Source: an uncultured euryarchaeote
Lineage (GTDB): Archaea > Thermoplasmatota > Poseidoniia > Poseidoniales > Poseidoniaceae
Assembly (NCBI GenBank): GCA_937892945.1
Contig: CALBIL010000032.1
Span: 1 to 52,982, forward strand
Length of the DNA: 52,982 nt
Reading direction: 5' to 3'
Shown here: one piece after another, positions 24,709 to 44,300 of the stretch
How positions within the stretch are numbered: position 1 is the stretch's first letter
How the letters are laid out: each line of letters begins with the position of its first letter
Notes under the pieces: model-generated
Databases searched by the model: none
What the model was told of the DNA's origin: nothing
The model's input: only the letters and a program-made list of their open reading frames with translations
Program-made: the position numbers and the translations under genes

Positions 24709-25485
24709 GTGATAGATGGAGTGCTTTACCATTTGATTATGGCAGTCGACCGTATGCAATGGGGAGCCGAAGAATGGCAATATGCAGACTTGTACATGCC
24801 TGATGACCCATCGCCGTACCAAAACGATGCTGGCCTTCCATGCGTCATGCTGATTCATGGTGGTTTTTGGAAGAGTTCATGGACAAGTGAACTCATGAAA
24901 CCCATTGCCCAAGATCTCGCTGAAGCAGGTGTAGCGACTTGGAATATTGAATTCAAAGGTTGGAGCGAAGGGGACGAGGGAGTATGGATGGATACACTTT
25001 CTGATGTACTACGTGCATGGGGGCAACTGGCTCTACTACCCGGAATTGACATCACCCGTTCAATGGTCATGGGCCATTCGGCAGGCGGCCAACTTGCACT
25101 CTTGTTGGCTGCAAATGCTGAGAGAAAACCTTGGCTCGTTATTGCTCAAGCTCCGATTACCGACCTGAGAGGTGCTGATGAAGCCAAACTTTCCGATGGA
25201 GGGGATGCTGTTCGACGATGGATCGGATGCAGTCCTGAAGACAATCCGACCTTGTGGGATCGGTTAAATCCAATCAAACACCCACCAATCGTACCGGTGT
25301 TACTCGTTCATGGTGAACGAGACACAGATGTTCCAAAAGAACAATCCGAAGCATATGCAGACATTATGTCTGCAAAAGGTATCGATGTACAAAAATTATG
25401 GCTTCCCGGCGACCATTACTCGATTATTGATGTTGCATCGGATGATTGGTTGGTCGAATTAGATTCAATTCTACAATGGCTTTGA
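24709..25485 (+). CDS. alpha/beta hydrolase, arylformamidase/BD-FAE-like
   Basis: A 258-aa serine hydrolase. The oxyanion-hole motif is HGGFW, the nucleophile elbow is MGHSAGGQLAL, the acidic residue is the Asp in HGERDTDVP, and the catalytic His is in LPGDHYSIID. HGGxW with GHSAGG is the pattern of kynurenine formamidases (arylformamidase/AFMID) and related feruloyl-esterase-like enzymes. Hydrolysis of an aryl formamide or small ester is therefore inferred, not proven. The GTG start has AAGGAG a few bases upstream; an ATG 30 nt downstream (MAVDRMQW) is an alternative. The SDR gene follows on the same strand after 40 nt, so the two are probably co-transcribed. Confidence 0.8.
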   Translation: MIDGVLYHLIMAVDRMQWGAEEWQYADLYMPDDPSPYQNDAGLPCVMLIHGGFWKSSWTSELMKPIAQDLAEAGVATWNIEFKGWSEGDEGVWMDTLSDVLRAWGQLALLPGIDITRSMVMGHSAGGQLALLLAANAERKPWLVIAQAPITDLRGADEAKLSDGGDAVRRWIGCSPEDNPTLWDRLNPIKHPPIVPVLLVHGERDTDVPKEQSEAYADIMSAKGIDVQKLWLPGDHYSIIDVASDDWLVELDSILQWL

Positions 25486-25525: not shown

Positions 25526-26341
25526 ATGGACCTCCTTGGTAGTGACTACCCGTATTCGACAACCGCCCTTGTTGGCAAGCATGCATTGGTATGCGGAGCA
25601 AGTAAGGGAATTGGCGCTGCTACAGCAAAAATGCTGGCAAAAGCAGGCGCTAACGTAACAGTTTGTGCCCGAAATGGAGAAGCGCTGGCTGCCCTTTGCC
25701 AAGAATTATCAGAACTTGGGAAAGGCAAACACGTATCACTTGTCCTCGACCTTGAAGATACATCTGGACTTGAACCAGCAATCACGACATTGTTGCAACA
25801 GCGTGGACCAGTCCACATACTCATCAATAACGCAGGTGGACCACCTGGTGGCCCCTTGCTTGGTAATTCAATCGAGGATTTTGAAGCGCCCTTCAAGCGA
25901 CATCTCCATGCTGCGCATACCCTCACACAGTTACTCGTCCCTTCGATGGAGTCTGAAGGCTATGGCCGTATTATCCAAATCATTTCGACTTCGGTCAAGG
26001 AACCAATTCCAAACATTGGACTTTCCAACACCCTTCGAGGAGCTATGGCATCATGGGCGAAGAGTTTGTCGAGTGAACTTGCTCCATGTATTACCATCAA
26101 CAATGTGCTACCTGGTTTCACCAACACAGAACGATTGGGCTCTCTTGCTTCATCGATCAATCAGAGAACCGGGAAAAGCCTCGAAGAAGTGCATCATGGA
26201 TGGATGAGTCAAGTACCAATTGAACGATTAATTGAGCCATTGGAAACAGCATCAGCGATTACGTTCCTCGCACTTCCTGCCTCAAGTGGCATTCGAGGCG
26301 TTAGTCTTGCAGTTGACGGTGGCCGTTTGCGAAGTATTTGA
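25526..26341 (+). CDS. atypical short-chain dehydrogenase/reductase-like protein
   Basis: The 271 aa form a Rossmann fold of SDR type. The nucleotide loop is CGASKGIGAAT, then LINNAGGPPGGPL (NNAG motif). The catalytic-serine strand is IIQIISTSVKEPIPNIG, followed by LSNTLRGAMASWAKSLSSEL, then INNVLPGFTNTERL and a C-terminal GVSLAVDGG. Where classical SDRs have YxxxK this one has SxxxR (SNTLR), so the proton-donor Tyr and its Lys are missing. This matches a known atypical branch related to 3-oxoacyl-ACP reductases. NADPH binding is likely; the reaction is uncertain. It follows the arylformamidase-like gene by 40 nt, and its stop abuts the convergent nuclease gene. Confidence 0.82.
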   Translation: MDLLGSDYPYSTTALVGKHALVCGASKGIGAATAKMLAKAGANVTVCARNGEALAALCQELSELGKGKHVSLVLDLEDTSGLEPAITTLLQQRGPVHILINNAGGPPGGPLLGNSIEDFEAPFKRHLHAAHTLTQLLVPSMESEGYGRIIQIISTSVKEPIPNIGLSNTLRGAMASWAKSLSSELAPCITINNVLPGFTNTERLGSLASSINQRTGKSLEEVHHGWMSQVPIERLIEPLETASAITFLALPASSGIRGVSLAVDGGRLRSI

Positions 26342-28317: not shown

Positions 28318-29568
28318 ATGGAGCATGACATATTCTTCTCTATCAGTCAAACTCCGGATGCAACGGGTTTGATTCCAAGCGAGCAAGAGATGTTTGCTAA
28401 TTATTTTCAACAACTCGAGTGTGCAGACACACTCGGTTTTGGGGTCGGATGGCTTGCACAAGCCCATTTATCTACCGAAGTTCAAAAATCGAATTCAAAA
28501 CCGGTTGTCCCCCACTGGGTTGGAGAAGTTGGACTTTGTACTGATTTTCCACAATTAGCCATGGAATCATTTCGAAGAACGAAATCCATCGAAATGGGCA
28601 GTGCTGTCGTCTCAATATTAGCATCAGGCGGACCGATTGCACAAGCTGAACGAATCGCGAACACCCTTCAACTGCATGGACTCAATCCCAATGAGACTCG
28701 CAAACTGCATGTTGGTTTCTCAGCAGGGCGCTTTGAATTTATGGCACGCCCGTACGGAATCGTCCCTCGGAATTCAATTGAAGAGGCTGCATGGCCAGCA
28801 CTTCGTGGCCAAATCTTCATCGAAGCAGGCGACATCTTTTTGCGACTCTTACGCGGCGATGTCGTCAATTCTGAAATGACTCATCCAACCGTTCTTCGAC
28901 GTGAAAACTTCCGGAGTGATGAAGATTGGGAGAAGGTTCAACGCGCAGCAATTGAATTTGAAAACCTAGAATCTGCACCTGATGAAATTGAAATCCCGAG
29001 ACGCTATGTTTTCGAAGATTTGAAAATCATACCTCAAAACTTCCGACGTGAATTATTAGTGATGGTTGCAGGTACGCATGACCCAAAGGCGCAGGTGTTT
29101 CTCAACACGATCTTACCGGTCAAAGTATTCAATCTTTCAATAACGAAACCTGAAATCATCGACGCTACGCATGACCGTATGCGTGAGGCTTTCAACCCAT
29201 CAGGTGGGGCGTGGAAACGCAGTGACATGCCTCGAACTTCGTTCGTATTCCTCAATGCCGAAGAAGGATTGTCATCCGAACAACAAAGTGAATCCGCAAA
29301 GAAAGAAGCAAAGGCTGCTCTTGGTGCCTATTGGAATGCTTTGGAAGGAACGATCGACCCCTCGAAAGTTGCAAACGCTGCCCAGAATGCCTTAATCGGA
29401 AACATTGAAGAAGTCGCCCAACAGATTCTGGAACGGTTCCATCCTGAAGACAGAATCATGGCTTGGTTTGATTTCTTTAATCACGACTCTGACCGAGTCT
29501 GCAGAGACATGACTGCTTACATGAAGCACGTTGTTCCTCGAGTTGAAGAACTGCTTGAATCGAGGTGA
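28318..29568 (+). CDS. luciferase-like (LLM class) flavin-dependent monooxygenase
   Basis: About 416 aa with the TIM-barrel layout of bacterial-luciferase-type enzymes. The first strand is MEHDIFFSIS; then ECADTLGFGVGWLAQAHL, VGLCTDFPQLAMESFRRTKSI, MGSAVVSILASGGPIAQAER and the diagnostic LHVGFSAGRFEFMARPYGIV. The C-terminal third (from about 230) is unlike classic luciferases and contains EDRIMAWFDFFNHDSDRV near the end. Such enzymes use reduced FMN or F420; which one cannot be read. The start is at MEHDIFF; frames from 28282 or 28285 would add up to 12 residues. The asparaginase-family gene follows after 4 nt, so they share an operon. A ring or side-chain oxygenation upstream of the ring-cleavage genes is possible but unproven. 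Confidence 0.8.
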   Translation: MEHDIFFSISQTPDATGLIPSEQEMFANYFQQLECADTLGFGVGWLAQAHLSTEVQKSNSKPVVPHWVGEVGLCTDFPQLAMESFRRTKSIEMGSAVVSILASGGPIAQAERIANTLQLHGLNPNETRKLHVGFSAGRFEFMARPYGIVPRNSIEEAAWPALRGQIFIEAGDIFLRLLRGDVVNSEMTHPTVLRRENFRSDEDWEKVQRAAIEFENLESAPDEIEIPRRYVFEDLKIIPQNFRRELLVMVAGTHDPKAQVFLNTILPVKVFNLSITKPEIIDATHDRMREAFNPSGGAWKRSDMPRTSFVFLNAEEGLSSEQQSESAKKEAKAALGAYWNALEGTIDPSKVANAAQNALIGNIEEVAQQILERFHPEDRIMAWFDFFNHDSDRVCRDMTAYMKHVVPRVEELLESR

Positions 29569-29572
29569 ACCT

Positions 29573-30688
29573 ATGGCGATTCGACATGATACTCCTTCCG
29601 CTGTTGAACCAGGAAAACCAGGGAGTTCATTGTTCCCAGACTCACCACTCGGTGAAAAAGTCGAAGGAATCCCTACTGGCCGAGAAGTGGCATGGGAACC
29701 TTTGGTTGATTATCGCAGAAACGGTGTATCCGAAACCACTATTCACGGCGCAATCGCTTGGTCACATGGTGATGAAGTGATTCATTCCTTTGGTGGAAAT
29801 GTGTTATGTTACGGTCGCTCAATGATGAAGCCATTTATGCTCAAGGCCTTCACTGAAGAATTAAAGGATACTTCATGGGAACAAAAGGCGATTGCTGTTG
29901 CATCCCATAACGGAGATACTGAGCACGTTGCTGCAGCACAATCACTTCTTTCAGAGGAAGAATGGCCACTCATGCTCACGCCATTGGATGTTCCACTGAT
30001 TCAATTTGGACGTCAAGTGCGTCGACCCCGGCGTTGGTTCCATACCTGCTCTGGTGAACACGCTGCAATTCTTCATGGATGCCGTAAGAAAGGATGGAAT
30101 CGCGCAGGATACACATTACCAACTCACGAAGTATTCGACGCATACATGGTTGAATTGCGAACCTATCTTGGTGAAGACTGGAAACCGTTACGAATTGCAA
30201 AGGATGGATGTGGACTGCCTACGGTCTCCAATACGGTTGCTGAACTCGCGCAAATCTATGCCGGTTTAGTTCGAGATAAGGACAACGATTGGATTTGGGA
30301 AGCAATGGTTCGAAGCCCAGATTTAGTTGGAGGTTTCAATCGACTTGATTCGACCGTACTCAAAGCCGGTGGTGGCAAAGTCATTGCCAAAGAAGGGGCG
30401 GATGGACTACTGGGACTTGCGATTGAGCACCCAGATTACCCCAAAGGTTTGGGAATTGTTGTCAAAATTGCACATGGATGGAATTCACAAGCCATGTGGT
30501 ATGTTGCCCGTGCCGTCTTAGGGGTCTTAGGAATCGATTTGCGAAACCCCTACCCATTGCATCGACAAAAAGCATTCATCGTCCCAGGTATCGTTCCTGA
30601 ACATTATCTGCCTCAACTTGAGACATTACCTACATGGGATGAATGGGACCCCGACCAAGACCGTTGGTTGTATGATGTTGAGGTGTGA
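29573..30688 (+). CDS. asparaginase II family (PF06089-type) amidohydrolase
   Basis: A 371-aa cytosolic protein of the rhizobial/thermolabile asparaginase type, which is unrelated to the classic L-asparaginase I/II fold. Family blocks are CYGRSMMKPFMLKA (usually RSxxKP), AVASHNGDTEHVAAAQ (SHxGxxxH), HTCSGEHAAIL (CSGxH) and KDGCGLPTVSN (DGCGxP). The two Ser/Lys pairs and Cys residues thought to be catalytic are present. It may hydrolyse asparagine, but its place in a probable amino-aromatic cluster leaves open another amide. The start has GAGGTGA just before ATG, within 4 nt of the preceding stop. The last codons overlap the first possible GTG of the ALDH gene. The N-terminal 40 residues before the core are longer than usual. 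Confidence 0.85.
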   Translation: MAIRHDTPSAVEPGKPGSSLFPDSPLGEKVEGIPTGREVAWEPLVDYRRNGVSETTIHGAIAWSHGDEVIHSFGGNVLCYGRSMMKPFMLKAFTEELKDTSWEQKAIAVASHNGDTEHVAAAQSLLSEEEWPLMLTPLDVPLIQFGRQVRRPRRWFHTCSGEHAAILHGCRKKGWNRAGYTLPTHEVFDAYMVELRTYLGEDWKPLRIAKDGCGLPTVSNTVAELAQIYAGLVRDKDNDWIWEAMVRSPDLVGGFNRLDSTVLKAGGGKVIAKEGADGLLGLAIEHPDYPKGLGIVVKIAHGWNSQAMWYVARAVLGVLGIDLRNPYPLHRQKAFIVPGIVPEHYLPQLETLPTWDEWDPDQDRWLYDVEV

Positions 30689-30690
30689 AC

Positions 30691-32148
30691 ATGCTTGACA
30701 TCCAGAATTTCATCGATGGATCGTTTACACATGCCATCAATGGTGAATCCATCAAGGACTTCAATCCGGCAACTGCTCAATGCATTGCCACAATCCCTCG
30801 TTCACAATCAGAAGATGTTGAACTCGCAGTATCAGCAGCACAATCCGCACAACCTGCTTGGACTGCCTTGACATTGGAACAACGAGCAGATTGGTTGGAC
30901 CGAATCGCTGATGCTCTGGAAAAGAAAACTGAAGACATTGCCCACACCGAATCAATTGACACGGGCAAACCAATTGCATTAGCACGAAGCGTCGATGCTG
31001 CTCGATCTGTGAGTAACTTTCGCTTTTTCGCTTCATTTGGGCGACAACAAACTGAAATGACATTCGAAATGGAAGATGCAATGAATTATGTTCATCGCTC
31101 ACCCGTTGGAACGGTCGGCTTAATCACACCTTGGAATCTTCCACTCTATCTTTTAACTTGGAAAGTTGCACCAGCATTGCTCATGGGCAATACAATCATC
31201 GCTAAGCCAAGTGAGGTCACTCCACTTACTGCCAACCTTTTGGCTGAAACATTACTCGAACTTGAGTTGCCGAAAGGCGTGTTTAATCTCGTTCACGGAT
31301 TAGGCCCAGAAGTCGGCCAAGCGATCTTAGAACATACAAAAATCAAGGCTATTTCCTTCACAGGTGGTACTGAAACTGGGCGGATTGTTGCCCGTACTGC
31401 TGCTCCAATGTTCAAGAAATTATCACTTGAATTAGGTGGTAAAAATGCGACTATTATCTTGAAGGATGCTGAACTTGAGAACGCTGTAGATGGTGCAGTT
31501 CGTGCTGCATTTAGCAATTCGGGACAAGTATGTCTTTGTGGTTCTCGGATTTTCATTGATGCAAGTATCGCAGAACAATTCACACACAAATTTGTCGAGA
31601 AGGTCAATGCCATACACATTGGTGACCCAATGGATGAAAATACGGTCATGGGTTCGGTCATCTCACCTGAACATCTGCTGAAAGTGGAATCCTATATTGA
31701 ACTGGCAATTGAAGAAGGAGGCACTGTATTAACCGGTGGAACCCGTGAAATGACTGGGTTCAAGGGACCGCAGGGCATTGGAGCATTTTTGCTACCGACC
31801 GTTGTCGGAGATCTGCCTCATACCTCTCGTTGTGCTACCGAAGAAATTTTTGGACCAATGGTGACCGTACATACATTCACATCAGAAACAGAGGCACTGA
31901 AAATGGTCAATGCTTCTGAATACGGTCTTGCAGGTTCAGTTTGGACCAAGGACTTAGAGCGTGGACGAGCGTTTTCCGAAAAGATCGACTCCGGAATTGT
32001 CTGGGTCAACACATGGCTTCACAGGGATTTACGCACTCCTTTTGGTGGAGTAAAGAATTCGGGTGTCGGTCGAGAAGGAGGCCAATGGTCCCTCGATTTC
32101 TTTTCAGAGATGACCAATGTCTGTGTTAAAAACCAAGAGACTGTTTGA
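30691..32148 (+). CDS. aldehyde dehydrogenase, 2-aminomuconate-semialdehyde (ALDH8/AmnC) type
   Basis: A 485-aa NAD-dependent dehydrogenase. Co-substrate and catalytic landmarks: TPWNLPLYLLTWKVAPAL (oxyanion Asn), TGGTETGR (NAD fold), LELGGKNATI (general-base Glu) and SGQVCLCGSRIF (catalytic Cys), with EEIFGPMV near the C-terminus. The CLCxSRIF variant after the catalytic Cys is typical of the branch that oxidises 2-aminomuconate 6-semialdehyde and 2-hydroxymuconic semialdehyde (ALDH8A1, AmnC). Most other ALDHs have different residues there. Start at ATG preceded by GAGGTG; an alternative GTG 6 nt upstream overlaps the asparaginase stop as GTGA. It is third in a three-gene tight operon and 2.2 kb from the ring-cleavage genes, which fits a role in the same route. 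Confidence 0.88.
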   Translation: MLDIQNFIDGSFTHAINGESIKDFNPATAQCIATIPRSQSEDVELAVSAAQSAQPAWTALTLEQRADWLDRIADALEKKTEDIAHTESIDTGKPIALARSVDAARSVSNFRFFASFGRQQTEMTFEMEDAMNYVHRSPVGTVGLITPWNLPLYLLTWKVAPALLMGNTIIAKPSEVTPLTANLLAETLLELELPKGVFNLVHGLGPEVGQAILEHTKIKAISFTGGTETGRIVARTAAPMFKKLSLELGGKNATIILKDAELENAVDGAVRAAFSNSGQVCLCGSRIFIDASIAEQFTHKFVEKVNAIHIGDPMDENTVMGSVISPEHLLKVESYIELAIEEGGTVLTGGTREMTGFKGPQGIGAFLLPTVVGDLPHTSRCATEEIFGPMVTVHTFTSETEALKMVNASEYGLAGSVWTKDLERGRAFSEKIDSGIVWVNTWLHRDLRTPFGGVKNSGVGREGGQWSLDFFSEMTNVCVKNQETV

Positions 32149-32187
32149 CAAACATATCTTCAAATGCAAGAGAGGTGATTTCGTAGC

Positions 32188-32910
32188 ATGGAAGCATTGC
32201 CTCTGTTTGTTTTACCCATGGTTTTAATGCCTGGTGAGGTCCAAGAATTACGTATTTTTGAGCCACGCTATCGGCAAATGCTTGATGATTGCTTACTGGA
32301 TGAGAAGAATTTCGGCTTGGTAATGAATGACCCGTTTGAACCAATAAACGCATGGGATGGACCCCGACAACATGGCTGTGAAGTCGAAATATTGCATCAC
32401 GAAACTAAAGGCAGCAACCACTTCATCCAGATTATTGGACGTCGAAAGTTCACGGTTCGCAAAGTGATTGCTCCCGCATTACCACCAATGAGTCATCCAA
32501 TGTTTGAATCCCATATTGAAGAAGATGGTCTGTTCCCCGACTTACAGACACTCCTCGAATTAATTCCTGAGGACGTCGGCCACTCAAAACTCTACATCAG
32601 TGCTGAAGTTGAATACCACCCTCATGAGGATTCAACTTCTGTTGAATTACAAGAGGTCCTCAAAGATATCTTGAATCATGTGTTAACGCGCATCGGAACT
32701 CTCCTTCGTATCGAAGAAGATGTACTGGGACAATGGATCACTGAACGAATTGGGAATTCGGTCACTGAAAGTCCCTTTTCGGCCTACACAGTCGCTGCAT
32801 TAGTCCTGAGTGAATTAGAAGCAAAGCAACAGATGCTCGCATGTGATACGATTGAAGAAGCCGTTGAAGAACTCGTCCACCACGTCTCGATGGTTGAAGA
32901 GGAAGAATAA
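32188..32910 (+). CDS. stand-alone LON substrate-binding (Lon N-terminal) domain protein
   Basis: The 240 aa are one PUA-like LON N domain without the ATPase or protease parts. They begin [20 protein letters not shown] and [15 protein letters not shown], the signature of Lon N-terminal domains. NFGLVM follows, and a helical region covers about 140-230 ([18 protein letters not shown]). Free LON-domain proteins exist in bacteria and archaea; their role is poorly defined, possibly substrate recruitment or ligand binding. The archaeal LonB elsewhere in this window lacks this domain. It follows the ALDH gene after 39 nt and precedes panB after 46 nt, same strand. The end is very acidic. Confidence 0.85.
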
Positions 32911-32956
32911 GACTCGCCGGCGAGGGTTTCAAAACAAACATGACCGTCGCACAACC

Positions 32957-33778
32957 ATGTCAGTTCACAGCGAAGCGCGGAAAATCACCACGCATACCCT
33001 CCAAGGGATGAAGCAAGCGGGTGAAAAAATCACCATGCTCACTGCGTATGATTATTCATTAGCCAAACTTGTTGACCAAGCTGGCGTCGATGTCATTTTA
33101 GTTGGTGATTCTGCTTCAAATGTGATGGCTGGACAGGTGACAACAGTTCCAATCACTCTTGAACATATGATTTATCATGCACAATGTGTGCAACGCGCAG
33201 TAGATCGAGCATTGATTGTCGTTGACATGCCGTTTGGGACCTATCAAGGGAATTCTGCAATTGCACTGGAATCAGCGATTCGAATTATGAAGGAATCCGA
33301 AGGTCATGCGGTCAAACTTGAAGGTGGGGCAGAAATCCTTCAATCTGTTGAACGTATCCTCACTGCCGGAATACCGGTTATGGGACACTTAGGACTGACA
33401 CCTCAATCGATTTACAAATTCGGAACCTATACGGTACGGGCCAAAGAAGACGATGAGGCTGAAAAGTTGATTGAAGACGCAAAATTGCTGGAGAAAGCAG
33501 GTTGCTTTGCCATCGTTCTTGAAAAAATACCACGTGAATTGGCATTGAAAGTCAGTCAAGCCCTCACCATTCCAACCATTGGTATTGGCGCAGGGCCTGA
33601 TTGTGACGGTCAAGTCTTGGTCTTGCATGATTTACTCGGTATTACAATGGACTTCTCTCCTCGCTTCCTTCGACGTTACCTTAATCTCGCTGAAGAAATC
33701 GATGGCGCTATCAAAAACTACTGCCAAGATGTGCGTTCAGGTGACTTCCCGAGCGATGAAGAAAGTTACACTTCGTAA
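32957..33778 (+). CDS. panB: 3-methyl-2-oxobutanoate hydroxymethyltransferase PanB
   Basis: Transfers hydroxymethyl from methylene-tetrahydropterin to ketoisovalerate, giving ketopantoate, the first step to pantothenate/CoA. The 273-aa TIM barrel starts at ATG ([20 protein letters not shown]) and has [19 protein letters not shown]. The metal site is [11 protein letters not shown] (Asp), with [10 protein letters not shown] (second Asp), AVKLEGG (catalytic Lys region) and [10 protein letters not shown]. It ends with [23 protein letters not shown] (Glu/Asp and product site). The VGDS loop varies from the usual SLGMVxxG. A frame extending upstream into the LON gene is not used. The stop abuts the convergent membrane-protein stop with no gap. 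Confidence 0.95.
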
Positions 33779-34270
33779 TCAAAGCAATTGGTAAGCCAAT
33801 ACGCTGCCTGCAAGGGCACCTAAATTGATTCCAAAGGCATGCCATAAACCATATCGGAACGGGGGGAACTCATAACGACCCCAGTCCGTACTGATCCAGA
33901 CCCACACCAGTAAAGCACCGTAACCACCACAAAACATTGCAGCCCAGCCAGATAACCAAATTATTGAGAACACCAATCCAAGTGCTGAAAGTCCGAGCGT
34001 GTATTCGTACCACCGAGATGATTTATTGTCAAGGAGAATTCGATATAACAACGGTGACAAAAGAATACTAACAATGAAAGCACCGTGTATTGGATTTGGC
34101 AAGTTGATTTCACCAATGCCCGGCATGACTTTCCATTGCCAAACCCCTCCAAGAATGGCTCCTAAAAATGCGGGGGCTAAGATGTGTTTCAATCCCGTTT
34201 CCAGATCGACTGCACGCATCAGGAATGGTGCATCTATTGGAACTTCAAGGCTGCCCTTTTCCTCGTCCAT
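33779..34270 (-). CDS. four-helix membrane protein of unknown function
   Basis: About 163 aa, starting at the second of two close in-frame ATGs (MDEEKGSLEVPID). Hydrophobic segments lie at about 31-45 (LAPAFLGAILGGVW), 62-76 (IHGAFIVSILLSPLL), 90-125 (YTLGLSALGLVFSIIWLSG and FCGGYGALLVWVWI) and 140-160 (FGINLGALAGSVLAYQLL). Trp and Gly are frequent. No family was recognised. The gene lies between panB (convergent) and the dioxygenase operon (divergent), so it is not part of either transcript. A longer frame extends to 34369 into the dioxygenase promoter and is unlikely. Confidence 0.65.
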   Translation of the reverse strand: MDEEKGSLEVPIDAPFLMRAVDLETGLKHILAPAFLGAILGGVWQWKVMPGIGEINLPNPIHGAFIVSILLSPLLYRILLDNKSSRWYEYTLGLSALGLVFSIIWLSGWAAMFCGGYGALLVWVWISTDWGRYEFPPFRYGLWHAFGINLGALAGSVLAYQLL

Positions 34271-34340
34271 ACACATGCCAAGTTGTGGAGTTGTTTGAGG
34301 GTTCGGGCACGAACCGCTGTGAAGACAGATGCTCCGATGC

Positions 34341-34349
34341 CGATATAAT
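34341..34349 (+). promoter_or_regulatory. TATA box of the dioxygenase operon
   Basis: CGATATAAT is centred about 26 nt before the ATG at 34372, placing the transcript start at or beside the start codon. The dioxygenase/deaminase pair thus has its own promoter, probably with a leaderless message, separate from the ALDH operon upstream. Confidence 0.6.
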
Positions 34350-34371
34350 CCCCCGATGCATCGGTTCATTC

Positions 34372-35274
34372 ATGTCGAAGGGCGAAATTGTCGCAGGTTG
34401 TTTAGCCCCTCACCCACCTCACTTGGTCTATGCAGAGAATCCTCCACAGAATGAGCCCATTGCTGAAGGTGGTTGGGAACAGTTACGTTGGGGATATGAA
34501 CGACTGCGAGAATCACTTGCTGGAGTCGACTATGATGCGATTGTTCTGCTTTCACCCCACTGGCAAACCTATGTAGGAACCCACTTCCTTGGACTTCCGA
34601 AATTCAAGAATCTCTCGGTTGACCCTGTGTTTCCTAACCTGTTCCGCTATCACTATGACCTCGATATTGATGTTGAACTTGCACAACAAATTCACGACCG
34701 CGCTGCTGATGCTGGATTGGCAGTTACAATGATGAAAAACCCTGACTTCCGCGTCGATTATGGTGCAATCACCACTGGACACATGTTTAATCCTTCTTGG
34801 GATAAACCCTTAGTGGTCATTTCAAGCAATCGCTCTCGAGACTATTACTCGGTTGAAGTGATGCAAGAAATGATGATTGAATTAGGACGTGTCACCCGCG
34901 AGGCAATTCTTGCAAGTGGGAAGAAAGTTGTCGTCATTGCAAGTAATTCGCTCTCACATCGTCACTTCACTACTGAATCTGCAATACCTGAAGACATGAG
35001 TAAAGAACACATCACCAGTCATGCAATGCATTTGTGGGACATGCGTATGATTGAATATTTCCGTACAGGCCAAGCACAACGAATTCTCGATGAAATGCCA
35101 GAATTTACTGAACAAGCCATCGCAGAAAGTGATGGTGGAGGGCTTTCATGGCTTCTTTCAACCCTTGATGTCCCAACGTATCCAGGAATTCTTCATGGCT
35201 ATGGGACCATCATCGGAACAGGGAACGCCATTGTCGAATGGCCTGCTCGCAACCACAAGGAGGCGAGTGAATGA
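34372..35274 (+). CDS. extradiol ring-cleavage dioxygenase, LigB-type catalytic subunit (2-aminophenol 1,6-dioxygenase-like)
   Basis: The 300-aa class III (LigB superfamily) ring-cleaving dioxygenase uses non-heme Fe(II). The expected ligands are present and spaced as in LigB: His14 in LAPHPPHLVY, His63 in LSPHWQ and Glu252 in QAIAESDGG. The likely acid-base His is His196 in SNSLSHRHFT. The length and the presence of a matching second subunit immediately downstream fit 2-aminophenol/2-amino-5-chlorophenol 1,6-dioxygenases more than protocatechuate 4,5-dioxygenase. The product would be a 2-aminomuconate semialdehyde. The start is set by the leaderless TATA spacing. Its stop overlaps the next start as ATGA. 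The substrate is inferred from context; a catechol-type substrate is the main alternative. Confidence 0.85.
   Translation: MSKGEIVAGCLAPHPPHLVYAENPPQNEPIAEGGWEQLRWGYERLRESLAGVDYDAIVLLSPHWQTYVGTHFLGLPKFKNLSVDPVFPNLFRYHYDLDIDVELAQQIHDRAADAGLAVTMMKNPDFRVDYGAITTGHMFNPSWDKPLVVISSNRSRDYYSVEVMQEMMIELGRVTREAILASGKKVVVIASNSLSHRHFTTESAIPEDMSKEHITSHAMHLWDMRMIEYFRTGQAQRILDEMPEFTEQAIAESDGGGLSWLLSTLDVPTYPGILHGYGTIIGTGNAIVEWPARNHKEASE
35257..35263 (+). promoter_or_regulatory. Shine-Dalgarno of the alpha/RidA fusion gene
   Basis: AAGGAGG lies 7 nt before the ATG at 35271, a perfect ribosome-binding site inside the end of the upstream gene. With the ATGA stop/start overlap it indicates translational coupling of the two dioxygenase subunits. 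Confidence 0.7.
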
Positions 35275-36707
35275 GTGATGGAGAATTAATCGGTTCCTAT
35301 ATTGTTCCTGTTCATCCCCACACGGTGTTAGCCCCTGAACAAAATGAAGGCTGGGGACGCTTACGCGCAGCCTATGATGCCGCTGCACAACGTATTAAGG
35401 AAAGTGAGGCAGACCTTCTGATCATCTATTCAACCACTTGGCCAAGTATTATTGGACACCAAATTATTGCAGATCCAAATCCAGAATGGGTCATGGTCGA
35501 CCATGATTTCCATGAATTGGGTTCAATTCCTTATTCATTCAATATTGATGAGAAGTTTGCACACGCTTGGAACGAAGCAAATGAAAAGCGTGGCCTCAAA
35601 AGTAGAACCGTTGCTTACCATGGATTCCCAATTGATGTCGGGTCAGTCGTTGCACTGAAACTTTTGAACCCCGACAATGCCATCCCTGCAGTCATCGTTT
35701 CTTCCAACGTCTATGCAAACCGTGCTGAAACAACCGTTCTTTCAAAAGCGTGCATGGATGTTGTCAAAGCAACCGGAAGAAAGGCCGTTGCAATTACAGC
35801 AATGTCCCTTTCCAATCGAATGTTTACCAAACCGATTGAACCCAAGGATGACCGAATTCATTCACTCAAAGATGATGAATGGAATCGAAAGATTCTCGAG
35901 CTGTTAGGCGAAGGACGACTTGAAGATGTTGGCCAACTCTCACGCACTATTCATCGACAAATCCGTGTCAATAAAGTCGTAGCATTCAAACCAATGTGGT
36001 GGCTTTCAGGAATGAATTCAAATCGAAACAACTTAACTGGAGAGGTACTTGCCTATGAAGCACTGCACGGTGCTGGTGGAGCTGTTGTCCATCTCGACCC
36101 GACACCTTCTGGAGCGGGAGACATCGAATACGATGAAGATGACGTCGAATATTTCGCGGGTGAACGAAACGTATTGGACGGTGACCAAAGTGAGAATCAA
36201 TACATTGAATCTTTGAGTGAGGAATCTCCCGTGGAAGTACCACAAAAAAATGGTCCTGCTTTGTGGGAGCCGACTGAAAGTAAGGATTCAGTCAACAGTG
36301 AGGCTGCTCCAAAACCAGTGGGCGCTTATCCGCATGCTCGACGTGTTGGAGACTTGCTCTACCTCTCGGGCGTGGGCCCACGCCAACCAGGAACCAATGC
36401 AATACCGGGTGGACCCATCCATGACAAAGATGGAAAACCCCTCAATTATGACATTAAAGCACAAACTCAAGCTGTCGTCGACAACATTACTCGGATTCTT
36501 GAAGAAGCGGGAGGGACAATCGATGATGTTCTCGATGTCACTTCTTTCCTCGTCGATATGGATCGAGACTTCCAAGGCTACAATGAAGTCTGGGCAGAAA
36601 CTCTTGGGCAAGTTGGACCGACACGAACAACATTGGCCGTTCGTGCCCTCCCTACACCGATTGCTGTCGAAATGAAGGTCATCGCCAAAGCCCCGAAGAC
36701 AGAGTAA
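35271..36707 (+). CDS. LigB-like non-catalytic dioxygenase subunit fused to RidA/2-aminomuconate-deaminase domain
   Basis: The 478 aa are two proteins in one. Residues 1-285 are a LigB-superfamily domain: IVPVHPHTVLAPEQNEGWGR keeps the first His region, but the second ligand motif SPHW is STTW (residues 54-57), and SLSHRH is SLSNRM (179-184). This domain should therefore not bind iron itself, like the alpha subunits of two-subunit aminophenol dioxygenases. Residues about 286-345 are an acidic linker. Residues 348-476 are a RidA/YjgF domain: GAYPHARRVGDLLYLSGVGP, DIKAQTQAVVDNITRILEEAGG, GPTRTTLAVRALP with Arg452, and VEMKVIA with Glu467. It is closest in pattern to 2-aminomuconate deaminase (AmnD). 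The fusion would couple ring cleavage to the later deamination step. Coupled to the catalytic subunit by ATGA overlap. Confidence 0.85.
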   Translation: MSDGELIGSYIVPVHPHTVLAPEQNEGWGRLRAAYDAAAQRIKESEADLLIIYSTTWPSIIGHQIIADPNPEWVMVDHDFHELGSIPYSFNIDEKFAHAWNEANEKRGLKSRTVAYHGFPIDVGSVVALKLLNPDNAIPAVIVSSNVYANRAETTVLSKACMDVVKATGRKAVAITAMSLSNRMFTKPIEPKDDRIHSLKDDEWNRKILELLGEGRLEDVGQLSRTIHRQIRVNKVVAFKPMWWLSGMNSNRNNLTGEVLAYEALHGAGGAVVHLDPTPSGAGDIEYDEDDVEYFAGERNVLDGDQSENQYIESLSEESPVEVPQKNGPALWEPTESKDSVNSEAAPKPVGAYPHARRVGDLLYLSGVGPRQPGTNAIPGGPIHDKDGKPLNYDIKAQTQAVVDNITRILEEAGGTIDDVLDVTSFLVDMDRDFQGYNEVWAETLGQVGPTRTTLAVRALPTPIAVEMKVIAKAPKTE

Positions 36708-36758: not shown

Positions 36759-36813
36759 TGCGGCGGTTTACCCTCCAATACTAGTGAAATACTGGTACTT
36801 TTCCGGTGATGAG

Positions 36814-38484
36814 ATGGATTTAAAAAGCACAGCAGGGAAACTCATCCATGGTGATGTTCGAGGCGTAATGGATGACATTTCCAAAACGATTGAACGGACG
36901 ATTGGCCTTTCCGGTATCGTCATCATATCATTGTCCTCGATGCTTGGTTCAGGTCTTTTTGTAATGCCTGCTTTTGCCGCCCAAATGATGGGTCCCGGTA
37001 TTTGGTTGGCATTCTTACTTGCGGCAACAGTCGTACTCCCAGGGGCGCTTTCTAAATCCGAACTCGCCTCTGCTATGCCTTCGAGCGGTGGATCTTATGT
37101 TTACCTTGAACGAACCTATGGCCCCTTGTTTGGAACCATCAGCGGACTTGGTTTATGGGCTTCATTCCTCCTCAAAGCGTCCTTTGCTTTGATTGGATTC
37201 TCAGCATATATGTATGCACTCACAACCTACTTTGGATTTGAACTTACCAAAAATAACCTTCTTTGGATCTCGGTTGGCGCTCTTATTCTCATCACCGTGG
37301 TGAACATTTTCGGTGTAAAAAAGGTGAAAGCCATTCAAACACCAATCCTTGCCCTTACAATGTTGCTCTTGGGCATTATCTGTATCGTTGCCTTATTTGA
37401 CCCGCAAACCGACTTTTCACGTCCTATTAACGGTGGAAACGGTGCTTTTGACCAGTCACTGGCCACCATTGCAGAAACAGCGGCATTTGTATTCGTAGCT
37501 TATGCGGGTGTCACGAAGGTGGCTGCCATCGGTGGTGAAGTGAAAGAACCGGGGCGTAATCTCCCACTTGGAATTATGATTTCATTGCTCATTGCAACTA
37601 TTCTCTACTGTGTAGTGACTTTTATGATGATGGCTGCACTCCCCGACATGTGGTACATCCAAAACGGTGAACCAATCGAAGACCCAGTGTATTATTTCGT
37701 CAAAGTCATTGCTGGTTCTAAGGTTGGTGCGCTTGCAGCAGCATTGGCGGTGCTAACAATGATCTCCATGGCGCTCGCTGGTATTCTGGCAGCATCGCGC
37801 TTTTTGTTTGCAATGGCACGTGACAACCTCCTCCCCCAGTCTCTCGAAACGGTGAACGCAAAATATGAAACTCCACATTGGCCAATTATCATTACTGGAT
37901 TAGCAATGCTACTTGCCATACTGTTCTTGCCTGTGAAAGATGTTGCCAAATTGGCATCTGGTTTCAAAATCATGGTGTTCATGATGATTAATTCCTGCGT
38001 CATTGTACTTCGACGCTCACCTCAAGCACAAACATGGTACAAACCTGAATACAAATCTCACTTGTACCCATGGATTCAGGTTTGGGGCATCGTTGCAGGT
38101 ATTGCTCTGATTTACCTCATGGGGAGTAAAGCATTCATTGGTGCAGGAGCCGCTGTTGGACTTGGGACAATAACCTACTATGGCTATGGTAGAAAGCACA
38201 GCCAAATCCGTACTACACCATTCCAAAGCCTCCGCCTGCAGTTCTCAAATCCAACTGAAGCAGAACACAAGCTCCGTCTTGCTGCGTTCAAGGCTGCAGA
38301 CCTTGGTCAAAAGAACCACCTCACTGTGCCGGAGTTCATCAATGCACTCAAGGCCCTTGACTTCAATTATTCAAATGATGAATACCGCGACATATTCCAC
38401 AAATCGGATGCAGATGAAAATGGAGTGATCGATATTGATGAGTTCATCACAACGTTTGAAAATGATTTCTCTGAAGAAGGATGA
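36814..38484 (+). CDS. APC-superfamily amino-acid permease with C-terminal EF-hand domain
   Basis: About 556 aa. Residues 25-460 form a 12-helix amino acid-polyamine-organocation transporter with the family signature SSMLGSGLFVMPAFAAQMMGP in helix 1, then ELASAMPSSGGSYVYLERTYGP and ETAAFVFVAYAGVTKVAAIGGEVKEPGRNLP. The remaining cytosolic tail is an EF-hand pair. The first loop (about 493-505, around DLGQKNHLTVPEF) is degenerate. The second, DADENGVIDIDE at about 532-543, has every calcium ligand position filled (D1, D3, N5, D9, E12 with G6 and I8). Calcium or another ion may therefore gate uptake; inference. The ATG preceded by GGTGA is preferred; a GTG start 30 nt upstream is possible. It follows the deaminase fusion after about 100 nt and could import the pathway substrate. 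Confidence 0.88.
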   Translation: MDLKSTAGKLIHGDVRGVMDDISKTIERTIGLSGIVIISLSSMLGSGLFVMPAFAAQMMGPGIWLAFLLAATVVLPGALSKSELASAMPSSGGSYVYLERTYGPLFGTISGLGLWASFLLKASFALIGFSAYMYALTTYFGFELTKNNLLWISVGALILITVVNIFGVKKVKAIQTPILALTMLLLGIICIVALFDPQTDFSRPINGGNGAFDQSLATIAETAAFVFVAYAGVTKVAAIGGEVKEPGRNLPLGIMISLLIATILYCVVTFMMMAALPDMWYIQNGEPIEDPVYYFVKVIAGSKVGALAAALAVLTMISMALAGILAASRFLFAMARDNLLPQSLETVNAKYETPHWPIIITGLAMLLAILFLPVKDVAKLASGFKIMVFMMINSCVIVLRRSPQAQTWYKPEYKSHLYPWIQVWGIVAGIALIYLMGSKAFIGAGAAVGLGTITYYGYGRKHSQIRTTPFQSLRLQFSNPTEAEHKLRLAAFKAADLGQKNHLTVPEFINALKALDFNYSNDEYRDIFHKSDADENGVIDIDEFITTFENDFSEEG

Positions 38485-41368: not shown

Positions 41369-44300
41369 TTAATCCGTCCATTCGCCCCATTCGCTTTCGC
41401 CTTCTTGACGGAAATACCAGACTTCATTTTCATCTTGGGCCCATTCAGTACCATCTTCATCAACACGATGGTCAACTTGCCAAGAAGTGTCTTCGGTCAC
41501 TGCCTCAATTACTATTTCCGGGACTGCTTTGGTCTCCGGCGCAGGACCGCTTGGTCCAGGTGTCGTGCCAGGCGCAGGACCGCTTGGTCCAGGTGTCGTG
41601 CCAGGCGCAGGACCGCTTGGTCCAGGTGCAGGGCCAGAAGGTGTATTGTCATCATCGTATGAATCGTCATCATCATCTTCATCATCGTAGTCAGATTCAC
41701 CACCGCGTAACGCTGCAACAAGCAACCCAACAATCACAAGACTCACAAGAGCTATGAGAACTGCACCAACGTAGTAAAGGGCGCCTCCTGCTTTGAAGAA
41801 TCCACCGATATTTCCTGTAACATCAACCGAACGTTCTTCTGAAACCTTTCCAGCAGTGATTGTGACGGTTTGAGGACCATCATCGAGAGTCACGATGTTC
41901 CATACCCCTTGGCCTTGATTCAAGACTTCAGCACGACCTGTCGCATCGACATTTGCACTCGATGGTATTGGAATCGGGTTGAGATATTTGTCGAATGCTT
42001 TGACAGTAACTGTGAAATTACCCAATTGGTCGATTGAATCGGAAGAGAGTTCAACGGTGAGTGAATGAACGACTTGCAATGGGTCAACCGAAATATTCGC
42101 AAAACCTTCTGCATCTCCAGTCGAGAAGTCCAAAGTGTGAGGTCCAGCAAGAGTTGCAGTATAGACATAGGTTCCTTCATCTTGGCCTGCAGAAATATTC
42201 TCAACTCGGACGGCATTTTCAGTCCATTCTACGAGTTGTGGGAATGTGTTTCCATCGGCATCTTCTCCAGTCACGAGAATGGCAATCTCTCCACCAGCAG
42301 TTTGCTCAGCAGTATCAAGTTCAGCAGTAAGGAGAATCGCTTCACCATGATGAACAATCATCGTAACACTGTCACTGACATTGTAACCAGCATCGTTGAC
42401 TGCTGAGGCTGAAATACTCCAATTACCAACGTGTGAGGCATCCCAACGCATATTGGAACTGAGAAGAGAATCAGTGATGATTTCGAACTCACCCGAATCG
42501 AGGTTCGTCAAATACCAGACCACGATGGTTGAATCAATCGGATTTGTATCGAGGTCTGAAAGTTCTACTGAGAAGTCAAGATATTCGTCCGCAGTCATAT
42601 CAAAGGCCGTGTTTGCAGTACCGGTTGAATCCGTAACAGTTAACAGAACTGAATTCAAATCACCGTGTGATACGGTGACATTGATAGCAACTTCATGAAG
42701 AGAGAAACCATCGTTATATGAGGCTGTAATCGAATAAGGTTCGGTAGATGCCAAGTAGGGGACAAAGGTTGTTTCATCTCCAACAAGTTGTTCAAGAGCA
42801 GATTGTGAACTCCATTCCGAATGGGTGATGGTCCAATTCGCAGATATAATCCAGCGGTTATCTTTCTGGTCATATGCTTTGACCTTGATCTCAAGAAGAT
42901 CATCTGCTGTAATATCAAACGATTCCCAAGTTGAAACGTTATTGTCAACAAGGAGAATCAAAGAAACAATGGCACCTTCTTGAACCGTAATGGTGATTTG
43001 AGAAGAAACCGTCTCATAATACGCTTCAATTACTTTAGCACCACGTGATGTAGGAGTCCATATTGCTGGAGCGCCAACCATCAACTGGCCGTCTTGAATC
43101 TGAACCCAGTTTTCACTTGGAAGAAGAACTGGCAATCGGTTTCCACGGATATCAACACGAGTCGTGTTAATCCAAACATGTTCATCAGCTGTAATCGAAG
43201 TGGTCGATGCATCGAGTTCTAAACTCGCCATTTCACCGTGCCCGACTGTCAGCATCAAAGAACCTGCGGCACCTGATGTTGAGGTGAGATTCAAATGCCA
43301 GATCCCAACTTGGTCAGGGAAGTATTCGCCTGAAGCTTCACTGTAATTGCCGTTGGTATTTGTCCAAGTGAGGTCCCCTGCTTCGGAGATCTCGGTGATT
43401 TCATTACCAAATTGGTCGAACAGTGTATGCGTGACTGCACACAAAATACCTGCAGGAATTGTCCCTTGGCAGCCATCCAATTCAAAGTAGGACGGAGCGC
43501 CGGTTTCGACTGTTATTGAAACAACAGTCGTTTGCGTGGTACTTGTCAAATCAACCCAAGAGACTTGAACGGTTTGAATACCGCTTGCATAAGGAATAAA
43601 CAAGCCTTCTGTGAACACAGCCATGCTACCATTACTCGGCAGATAAGTGATTGATTGTCCAGATACGGTGTTGCCATGTTGGTCAACAACATAGGCAGTA
43701 ATTTGCAATGTCTCATCAGCGGAAAGAGTTGCGGATTCCGGTAGAACCACTAACGTTGTCGGAGCACCTGGAGTCACCGTGACGATTTCAGATGAACAAA
43801 TGATGCCAAAGCATGCAGTGACGGTCTGTTGTCCAGATGCAAAGGGTGTAAAGATTCCCGTTTGAGAGATGCTTCCATTGGTTGCACTCCAAGTAACTGG
43901 TGCGTTAATAGGCAACGTCAAATGATCATAGGAAACATAGGAAAAGGTCACAGAAGTATCAGCATCCGTAGTTGGAGCAGTCGGAGTTAAATTGATCGTG
44001 GTCACATTGGTGTGATTCAACAGAATCTGTGGACGGTAACTCTGTAAGCCATTTTCACTGGACATAAAGTTTGCAAGTAAACTACCTCGATTTGGAGTTG
44101 CAATAATAATCCAAGCATTGTTGTTATCAATGAACATTCCATCGACGCCAATATCAAACCAAATCCAACGTTGGTCACTCATATCGGTTTCAACCAAAGT
44201 CGAAATTGGTGTAGCATCATAATCGACTCCTGCTTGCATACCCGGTGCACCCCATGCACCAGTTGAGGAACTCGAGGATGCGTTCCAAGTCGAAGACGAT

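Follow-up and report, generated by a model that had tools for sequence, protein, structure and literature searches.

A gene cluster of Poseidoniales archaea and several bacterial phyla that may break down tryptophan through 2-aminophenol without kynureninase

The DNA analyzed here (hereafter the window) is a stretch of 52,982 nt, contig CALBIL010000032.1 of assembly GCA_937892945.1, from an uncultured archaeon of the order Poseidoniales (marine group II, MGII). It carries a set of genes for which catabolism of tryptophan through 2-aminophenol, with no kynureninase taking part, is the best explanation that sequence comparisons offer, and in our judgment a probable one. A first-pass annotation of this DNA had instead read the region as an archaeal meta-cleavage pathway for some amino-aromatic compound. 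The genes concerned are the following:

24709-25485, plus strand: alpha/beta hydrolase with an HGGFW motif (Pfam BD-FAE and other alpha/beta hydrolase models), candidate N-formylkynurenine formamidase
25526-26341, plus strand: protein of the short-chain dehydrogenase/reductase (SDR) fold (adh_short, 132 bits)
28318-29568, plus strand: luciferase-like (LLM) flavin monooxygenase, recognized from its fold model and orthologues, candidate kynurenine Baeyer-Villiger monooxygenase
29573-30688, plus strand: class 3 asparaginase homologue (PF06089), candidate beta-aspartyl ester or anilide hydrolase
30691-32148, plus strand: aldehyde dehydrogenase (ALDH) of the 2-aminomuconate 6-semialdehyde dehydrogenase type (best PDB match 4u3w, 2e-140)
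34372-35274, plus strand: AmnB, catalytic subunit of the 2-aminophenol 1,6-dioxygenase type (PDB matches, iron ligands)
35271-36707, plus strand: partner subunit AmnA carrying a fused RidA domain of the 2-aminomuconate deaminase type (Pfam, PDB)

The start of AmnA-RidA overlaps the stop of AmnB by 4 bases, and for the ALDH we took the ATG at 30691 to be a likelier start than the in-frame GTG at 30685. The SDR and the alpha/beta hydrolase upstream are part of the same gene set.

Pfam assigned LigB to both dioxygenase subunits, and Aldedh, Ribonuc_L-PSP (RidA), Asparaginase_II and an amino acid permease family to other proteins of the window. In the PDB, AmnB matched 8ihg_A (1.6e-103) and 3vsg_B (5.9e-103), which are beta subunits of 2-aminophenol and 2-amino-5-chlorophenol 1,6-dioxygenases, while the AmnA part matched the alpha subunit 3vsg_A (4.6e-40) and the RidA part had 2-aminomuconate deaminase 6izh as its best match (1.5e-26). 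Residues aligned with the iron ligands His13, His62 and Glu251 and with the acid-base His195, in what we take to be the numbering of the known dioxygenase, mapped via the alignment to the PDB match, were identical in all 53 aligned rows. With its paired catalytic and partner LigB-type subunits, AmnBA is by sequence of the 2-aminophenol 1,6-dioxygenase type, and it is predicted to cleave 2-aminophenol. The seven top PDB sequences for the ALDH were all named 2-aminomuconate 6-semialdehyde dehydrogenase, several of them being variants of one protein. According to the portion of the source covered, Arg120 and Arg464 hold the substrate in the Pseudomonas enzyme of that name (PMC4286809), and both are kept in the window as R107 and R447 (counted in the frame from 30685; alignment to 4i1w). 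The ALDH fell below the cut-off of TIGR03216 for 2-hydroxymuconic semialdehyde dehydrogenase (551.2 vs 693.25 bits), which was still the best of the 42 NCBIfam models that it matched. The first-pass annotation had named a LigB-type dioxygenase with all iron ligands, its second subunit, a 2-aminomuconate-deaminase-like RidA domain and an ALDH of the 2-aminomuconate-semialdehyde type, and all four calls were borne out: the closest solved relatives of the ALDH and the dioxygenase are enzymes of the 2-aminophenol pathway and not of unrelated subfamilies.

The set is widespread in the order. A search for AmnB (E <= 1e-10) gave a match, which in a few genomes was to the paralogue AmnA alone, in 257 of 292 genomes and in 22 of 22 genera, and the match was present in all 35 genomes with completeness of 90% or more and contamination of 5% or less. 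At 14 of 20 loci from the order, LLM shared a fetched stretch of 10-20 kb with AmnB or AmnA; the two operons are thus neighbours in related genomes, as the earlier proposal needed them to be. Among the other six loci, L044 is truncated by its contig, and the remaining five (L043, L051, L053, L054 and L057; four from group f2 and one from group f1) have AmnB/AmnA with no LLM nearby. Other genera, a second family and other phyla show the same gene order, from which we conclude that the arrangement is more than chance.

Relatives beyond the order came from a scan with an LLM alignment over one genome per species (84,980 species), which gave 407 relatives; we studied the best 80 of these 407 by likeness to an actinobacterial sequence, a choice in which the window's own kind is under-represented. 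These 80 loci were 45 bacterial, 27 MGII, 7 marine group III (MGIII) and 1 other archaeal, with entries named generically "Euryarchaeota" sorted by gene order, L151 and L178 sorted also by the AmnB tree, and L122 counted as bacterial. Together with the 20 fetched loci they make 100, in which a single genome (L047 and L139) is counted twice, as it is among the 41 AmnA/RidA pairs described below. A gene was called present in a locus at a tblastn score of at least 50 bits (45 for the check on pairs of deformylases), at which short, split or diverged genes can be missed. Flanks were called ample when the sequence upstream of the LLM exceeded 3 kb and that downstream 6.5 kb, as was the case at 29 bacterial loci. 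L122 itself, a 5.3-kb contig of a metagenome-assembled genome labeled Klebsiella pneumoniae, carries SDR-LLM-ALDH and is probably a mislabeled bin.

The order that recurred in bacteria of several phyla and in MGIII was TDO-SDR-LLM-asparaginase homologue-ALDH-AmnB-AmnA-RidA, TDO being tryptophan 2,3-dioxygenase. At the 29 bacterial loci with ample flanks we found SDR in 23, the asparaginase homologue in 21, ALDH in 22, AmnB in 15, AmnA in 15, RidA in 13, TDO in 11 and a KynB-like gene in 12. All eight genes of the recurring order were present at six of these loci (L109, L119, L126, L132, L141 and L156) and at all four MGIII loci with ample flanks (L148, L151, L170 and L178), in identical order and on one strand in all ten; L140, labeled as a Thermoplasmata archaeon, likewise holds all eight, with SDR last. 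Where enough sequence was available, the asparaginase homologue lay at most 600 bases downstream of LLM (61 of 75 loci) and SDR at most 600 bases upstream of it (60 of 75). The 45 bacterial LLM genomes contained TDO in 44 cases, the asparaginase homologue in 39 (E <= 1e-60) and AmnB in 38 (E <= 1e-40). The last two co-occurred: 37 genomes had both, five neither (L106, L107, L117, L120 and L127) and three only one, namely the asparaginase homologue in L142 and L164 and AmnB in L129 (Fisher p = 1e-4, kinship ignored). Most of the LLM genomes are metagenome assemblies of unstated completeness, in which single absences mean little. The first-pass annotation knew of no such system described from marine planktonic archaea; the gene set is not special to archaea and is found also in several bacterial phyla. 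Just before TDO, L126 (7409-7978, PF05995) and L132 (7444-8037) carry a cysteine-dioxygenase-like cupin.

Of 41 AmnA/RidA pairs, 29 were fused, in bacteria and MGII, and 12 were separate genes, in MGIII, some f2 genomes and three bacteria, so that fusion or fission happened more than once or inheritance was uneven. The fusion also bears on whether the cluster might be biosynthetic, the 2-aminomuconate semialdehyde made by AmnBA closing to picolinate or a related pyridine. Chemical rearrangement of this semialdehyde to picolinic acid is described for B. xenovorans in the part of the report covered (PMC3790839), but the ALDH and RidA encoded in the same clusters would draw the intermediate to 4-oxalocrotonate, and with RidA so often joined to AmnA we regard a biosynthetic role as very improbable indeed.

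Evidence for the source of the substrate came from TDO (PF03301), which was present in 12 of 12 and in 38 of 41 further genomes of the order, compared with 2 of 14 control genomes. In the window's own genome it lies on contig C44 (region L085) and matches solved TDOs at 2.6e-44. None of the same 12 genomes, one of which is a single contig, had a kynureninase (TIGR01814) above cut-off, and 2 of the 14 controls had one; three of the 12 gave weak matches of at most 50.5 bits. Among 30 LLM genomes (26 bacterial, 4 archaeal), only two passed the cut-off, those of the actinobacteria L106 and L107, and both of these are without the asparaginase homologue and AmnB. Apart from them and the L129 genome, discussed below, the LLM genomes scored at most 42.7 bits, and we accordingly rejected a hidden kynureninase, the search having given only weak matches outside these three. 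With TDO so common in the order, and a member of this very cluster in both bacteria and MGIII, the cell probably makes the substrate itself from tryptophan. The original idea of an amino-aromatic meta-cleavage pathway thus holds for the ring-opening and later enzymes, which are of the 2-aminophenol type, and gives way where the substrate is concerned. We consider the link of the cluster to tryptophan well supported by the sequence comparisons. As for the surroundings of TDO within the order, in f1 (L085) it adjoins what we take to be heme A synthase/farnesyltransferase-like genes and a gene resembling formate-dependent PurP, and in f2 (L088) a gene that is presumably a thiolase and an HMGL-like gene lie near it, the latter matched also by a model.

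These distributions can be set against a different reading, in which the cell obtains 2-aminophenol or some other amino-aromatic from seawater through an APC-family permease and breaks it down by an amn-like pathway, the LLM and the hydrolase preparing the substrate. The enzyme families and the operon neighbourhood would suit such a pathway. The TDO and KynB-like genes within the cluster of other lineages would not, nor would the AmnB tree, in which cluster AmnB is split from the plasmid-borne classical amn AmnB examined with support 100/100, and a set found in 257 of 292 genomes is more readily explained by a common metabolite than by a rare aromatic; we think import from seawater distinctly improbable. 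Origin from the degradation of nitro- or chloro-aromatics, as in the classical amn systems, was rejected as the leading explanation on the separate branching of AmnB and on the gene content of five plasmid loci, which hold neither LLM nor the asparaginase homologue.

The LLM protein of the window gave no Pfam, NCBIfam or PDB match in single-sequence searches. All four bacterial orthologues tested were above the PF00296 cut-off, a profile of 44 orthologues produced weak luciferase matches, and the AlphaFold2 model (predicted local distance difference test, pLDDT, 92.5) had members of the LLM superfamily as its top Foldseek matches, with 11-16% identity to the protein. On the strength of the orthologues and this model we place it in the luciferase superfamily, in line with the first-pass call of an LLM flavin monooxygenase. 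Luciferases and diketocamphane monooxygenases of this superfamily are described as Baeyer-Villiger enzymes in the part of the review covered (PMC8706424), and pathway logic makes the window protein a candidate type II Baeyer-Villiger monooxygenase. LLM relatives 44-47% identical to that of the window occur in Streptomyces clavuligerus (L105; 47%), Paractinoplanes and Amycolatopsis (L106, L107). No further query gene was found within 15 kb of the S. clavuligerus LLM (E <= 1e-3), and L107 has a TDO match beside its LLM. Perhaps these actinobacteria use the same oxygen insertion in secondary metabolism.

The protein encoded at 29573-30688 had been described as an amidohydrolase sharing the ALDH operon; it is in fact a homologue of class 3 asparaginases (Asparaginase_II, 157 bits), whose model (pLDDT 81.7) matches the folds of ReAV and ReAIV with E-values of 3.5e-17 to 4.5e-15 and 20-25% identity. 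Class 3 asparaginases form a beta-acyl enzyme on Ser48, with roles for Arg47 and for the tandems Ser48-Lys51 and Ser80-Lys263, as set out in the part of the study covered (PMC12292245). We mapped these places by motif on the alignment; all 33 homologues retain Arg47 along with the two Ser-Lys tandems. The zinc site differed: Cys135 and Cys189 were each kept in 29 of 33, and Lys138 in none (Glu in 29, Gln in 4). From the latter we conclude that the substrate differs from asparagine, and with this departure at the zinc site the homologue was not classed as an asparaginase. An Asp also takes the place of Cys249 in the alignment to ReAIV. The protein may still hydrolyze a beta-aspartyl bond, and its homology suggests that a beta-aspartyl compound is an intermediate of the pathway.

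Three kinds of candidate for the deformylation of N-formylkynurenine were found, and they take two places in the clusters, after RidA or before SDR. The KynB-like gene, represented by L126 16234-16860 (TIGR03035 arylformamidase, 194.5 bits; it passes PF04199), was present in 15 of 45 bacterial loci and in L140. In 12 of the 15 it starts no more than some 40 bases past RidA; it lies 1.9 kb past RidA in L113, and comes after AmnA in L124 and L159, where no RidA was seen. A Formyl_trans_N protein follows RidA in 5 of 7 MGIII loci and precedes SDR in 26 of the scan's 27 MGII loci and in 6 of the 20 fetched loci of the order. The alpha/beta hydrolase of the window, which carries HGGFW, an instance of what we take to be the formamidase motif HGGxW, was found in 8 of these 20 and stands directly before SDR in 6 of the 8. 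No locus among the 100 holds two of the three. That unrelated proteins alternate at two places suggests a shared job, deformylation of N-formylkynurenine, for which the alpha/beta hydrolase and the formyltransferase-like protein are candidates. Formyl_trans_N members of the archaeal clusters include L148 15280-15993, L170, L178 and, among f2 loci, L050 2913-3644, and such a protein might pass the formyl group to a cofactor and not lose it as formate. The SDR itself is unusual. The catalytic motif of classical SDR dehydrogenases is Tyr-x3-Lys, and neither the window protein nor its orthologues have it: Ser stands at the Tyr place (Ser167) in 37 of 38 orthologues and Arg at the Lys place (Arg171) in 38 of 38. 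Its position ties it to the LLM step, possibly as a flavin partner, although this is a guess.

Taken together, these genes can be arranged as a route from tryptophan. TDO would convert tryptophan to N-formylkynurenine and the deformylase would release kynurenine. Kynurenine is an aryl ketone, and the LLM flavoprotein would insert oxygen between its aromatic ring and its ketone in a Baeyer-Villiger reaction; the product would be a 2-aminophenyl ester at the beta-carboxyl of aspartate. Aminophenyl esters of this kind readily pass their acyl group to the neighbouring amine, so this one could rearrange to N-(2-hydroxyphenyl)asparagine. The asparaginase homologue would then cut the beta-aspartyl bond to yield aspartate and 2-aminophenol, which ring opening by AmnBA, oxidation by the ALDH and deamination by RidA would turn into 4-oxalocrotonate and ammonia. 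Such an ester route would explain why an LLM and an asparaginase homologue stand between TDO and AmnBA and why kynureninase is missing, and the beta-acyl mechanism on Ser48 of class 3 asparaginases fits its need for a beta-aspartyl substrate. Gene content supports the steps that lead to kynurenine and those that start from 2-aminophenol; the reactions themselves we infer throughout, above all the Baeyer-Villiger step and the hydrolysis.

The LLM could act differently. LLM enzymes can hydroxylate, and this one might stand in for kynurenine 3-monooxygenase and place a hydroxyl on the ring ortho to the amino group; side-chain removal would then fall to an unrecognized enzyme, perhaps the asparaginase homologue, and AmnBA would open the ring of 3-hydroxykynurenine or 3-hydroxyanthranilate. 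The TDO and KynB-like genes of the clusters agree with this as well, both compounds bear the ortho-aminophenol pattern that AmnBA-type enzymes recognize, and a fungal 3-hydroxyanthranilate cluster with 2-aminomuconate enzymes is described in the part of the paper covered (PMC7842363). However, a ring product with a carboxyl group at position 3 would have to pass through a decarboxylase before the ALDH, and none is among the recognized recurring cluster genes (ACMSD was not searched genome-wide). The asparaginase fold is moreover not an obvious C-C hydrolase, and AmnB is more than 50% identical to enzymes acting on 2-aminophenol itself. We therefore consider 3-hydroxylation unlikely and prefer the route through the aspartate ester.

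Several observations weigh against the preferred route through 2-aminophenol. At its lower end, the first-pass annotation had advised looking beyond the window for oxalocrotonate decarboxylase, hydratase and aldolase; none of 12 genomes of the order had a 4-hydroxy-2-oxovalerate aldolase (TIGR03217) above cut-off, and each of the 12 had a single FAA_hydrolase-family (PF01557) match, whereas the classical route needs both a decarboxylase and a hydratase. At its upper end, TDO lies away from the cluster within the order and is not in the stretch at the 18 other bacterial loci with ample flanks, and the cluster TDO tested was above the Pfam cut-off but under that of TIGR03036 (174.8 vs 390.7). 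The KynB-like protein of L126 is under the TIGR03035 cut-off of 223.05 bits, and the alpha/beta hydrolase of the window matches no NCBIfam formamidase model. As to the linking steps, the fold search with the LLM model matches the superfamily broadly and does not single out its Baeyer-Villiger members (the type II enzyme 4uwm was at rank 32), the zinc ligand Lys138 of ReAV is never kept in the asparaginase homologues, and the SDR, lacking the usual catalytic residues, has a role for which the pathway does not account. The pattern of occurrence also has exceptions. The five bacterial genomes with LLM and TDO and neither asparaginase homologue nor AmnB indicate that the LLM can act outside the proposed route, and the L129 genome combines AmnB with a likely kynureninase (235.5 bits, cut-off 246.4) and has no asparaginase homologue at E <= 1e-60. 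Finally, in a sample of 20 of the 35 AmnB-less genomes of the order, TDO was kept in 18 and LLM in 16, compared with 20 and 21 of 21 control genomes of the order with AmnB; we put this down to incomplete assemblies, and phylogenetic profiling within the order was for this reason uninformative. Weighing these points, we still lean, with a little less assurance than in our explanation of the genes themselves, toward a new tryptophan pathway that is core to an abundant archaeal order of the surface ocean, is shared with MGIII and several bacterial phyla, splits kynurenine into aspartate and 2-aminophenol by the Baeyer-Villiger action of the luciferase-type enzyme and by the asparaginase homologue, and has 2-aminophenol as a normal intermediate.

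The neighbouring genes of the window include three that separate the two enzyme groups and a permease that follows them:

32188-32910, plus strand: Lon substrate-binding-domain protein (PF02190, 67.3 bits), between both enzyme groups and given no place in the proposed pathway
32954-33778, plus strand: PanB ketopantoate hydroxymethyltransferase (TIGR00222, 333.9 bits, above cut-off), likewise given no place in it
33779-34369, minus strand: small frame separating PanB from AmnB, with a sequence that reads as membrane-like and with no Pfam or NCBIfam family
36784-38484, plus strand: APC-family amino acid permease (AA_permease_2, 154.8 bits) with a C-terminal EF-hand pair, candidate substrate importer

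Homologues of the small frame occupy the same place in seven f1 loci. The permease adjoins AmnA-RidA in 10 of 13 f1 loci, which makes it a candidate for import of the substrate. Its EF-hand pair (EF-hand_7, 33.4 bits, cut-off 30) hints at calcium control of an archaeal transporter. Further downstream, a single reading frame of 3076 codons fills 41369-50599 on the minus strand, and in related genomes its relatives likewise come after the permease.

Textbooks describe tryptophan breakdown with kynureninase as the step that frees the ring. If the proposed route is right, there is a second way to do so, in which two known folds perform new chemistry. It would account for TDO being common without kynureninase in these archaea and would yield aspartate instead of alanine. 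A luciferase-like family, with its 407 relatives in the scan, and a conserved asparaginase-like family would each gain a function, the use of protein-derived amino acids by uncultured marine archaea would become clearer, and 2-aminophenol would be a regular intermediate of amino acid metabolism and not a pollutant. We rate the finding as a variant of tryptophan catabolism on present evidence, and as a new pathway if both linking reactions are confirmed. The literature covered, which left out bioRxiv and most subscription journals, held no account of the cluster or of a Baeyer-Villiger step from kynurenine to 2-aminophenol in the parts available, and a published account may exist. The covered parts of a paper on an actinobacterial 2-aminophenol microcompartment (PMC10470539) made no mention of kynurenine, tryptophan or asparaginase, and those of PMC9723583 and PMC11237513 held no passage on aminophenol or a dioxygenase.

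Among known systems, the amn/cnb pathway of Comamonas CNB-1, Burkholderia LB400 and others shares AmnB, AmnA, the semialdehyde dehydrogenase and the RidA deaminase with the clusters described here, and AmnB of the window's type is 50-54% identical to five plasmid-borne versions. It differs in that the five plasmid amn loci have no LLM or asparaginase homologue (E <= 1e-4), in the lack of an aldolase above cut-off in the 12 genomes of the order, in the frequent fusion of AmnA and RidA here, and in the separate AmnB branch. The 3-hydroxyanthranilate cluster of Aspergillus and other Ascomycota is a striking parallel, with a 2-aminomuconate semialdehyde dehydrogenase and a RidA-family deaminase; there 3HAO does the ring opening, with ACMSD, an FAD enzyme with the classical motif and not an LLM serves as monooxygenase, and the part of the paper covered mentions no asparaginase-like gene (PMC7842363). 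A further 3-hydroxyanthranilate pathway, described in the covered part of PMC4286809, has an ALDH of the same substrate type, with the same two arginines. Type II Baeyer-Villiger monooxygenases, such as diketocamphane monooxygenases and bacterial luciferase, share the LLM fold at 11-16% identity, and the substrate here would by contrast be the aryl ketone of an amino acid. Where a 2-aminomuconate semialdehyde dehydrogenase serves 3-hydroxyanthranilate breakdown in the pathway just named, ring opening is the work of a cupin dioxygenase and a decarboxylase, unlike AmnBA. ReAV and ReAIV of Rhizobium etli share the fold and both Ser-Lys tandems with the asparaginase homologue, which differs in having Glu or Gln for the zinc ligand Lys138 and Asp for Cys249, at 20-25% identity. 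With the kynurenine pathway (TDO, KynB, KynU), lastly, the clusters have TDO in common and, in bacteria, a KynB-like arylformamidase; they part from it in that no kynureninase passed the cut-off in any of the 12 genomes of the order or in 28 of 30 LLM genomes, and in their predicted products, which would be aspartate and 2-aminophenol where the kynurenine pathway gives alanine and anthranilate.

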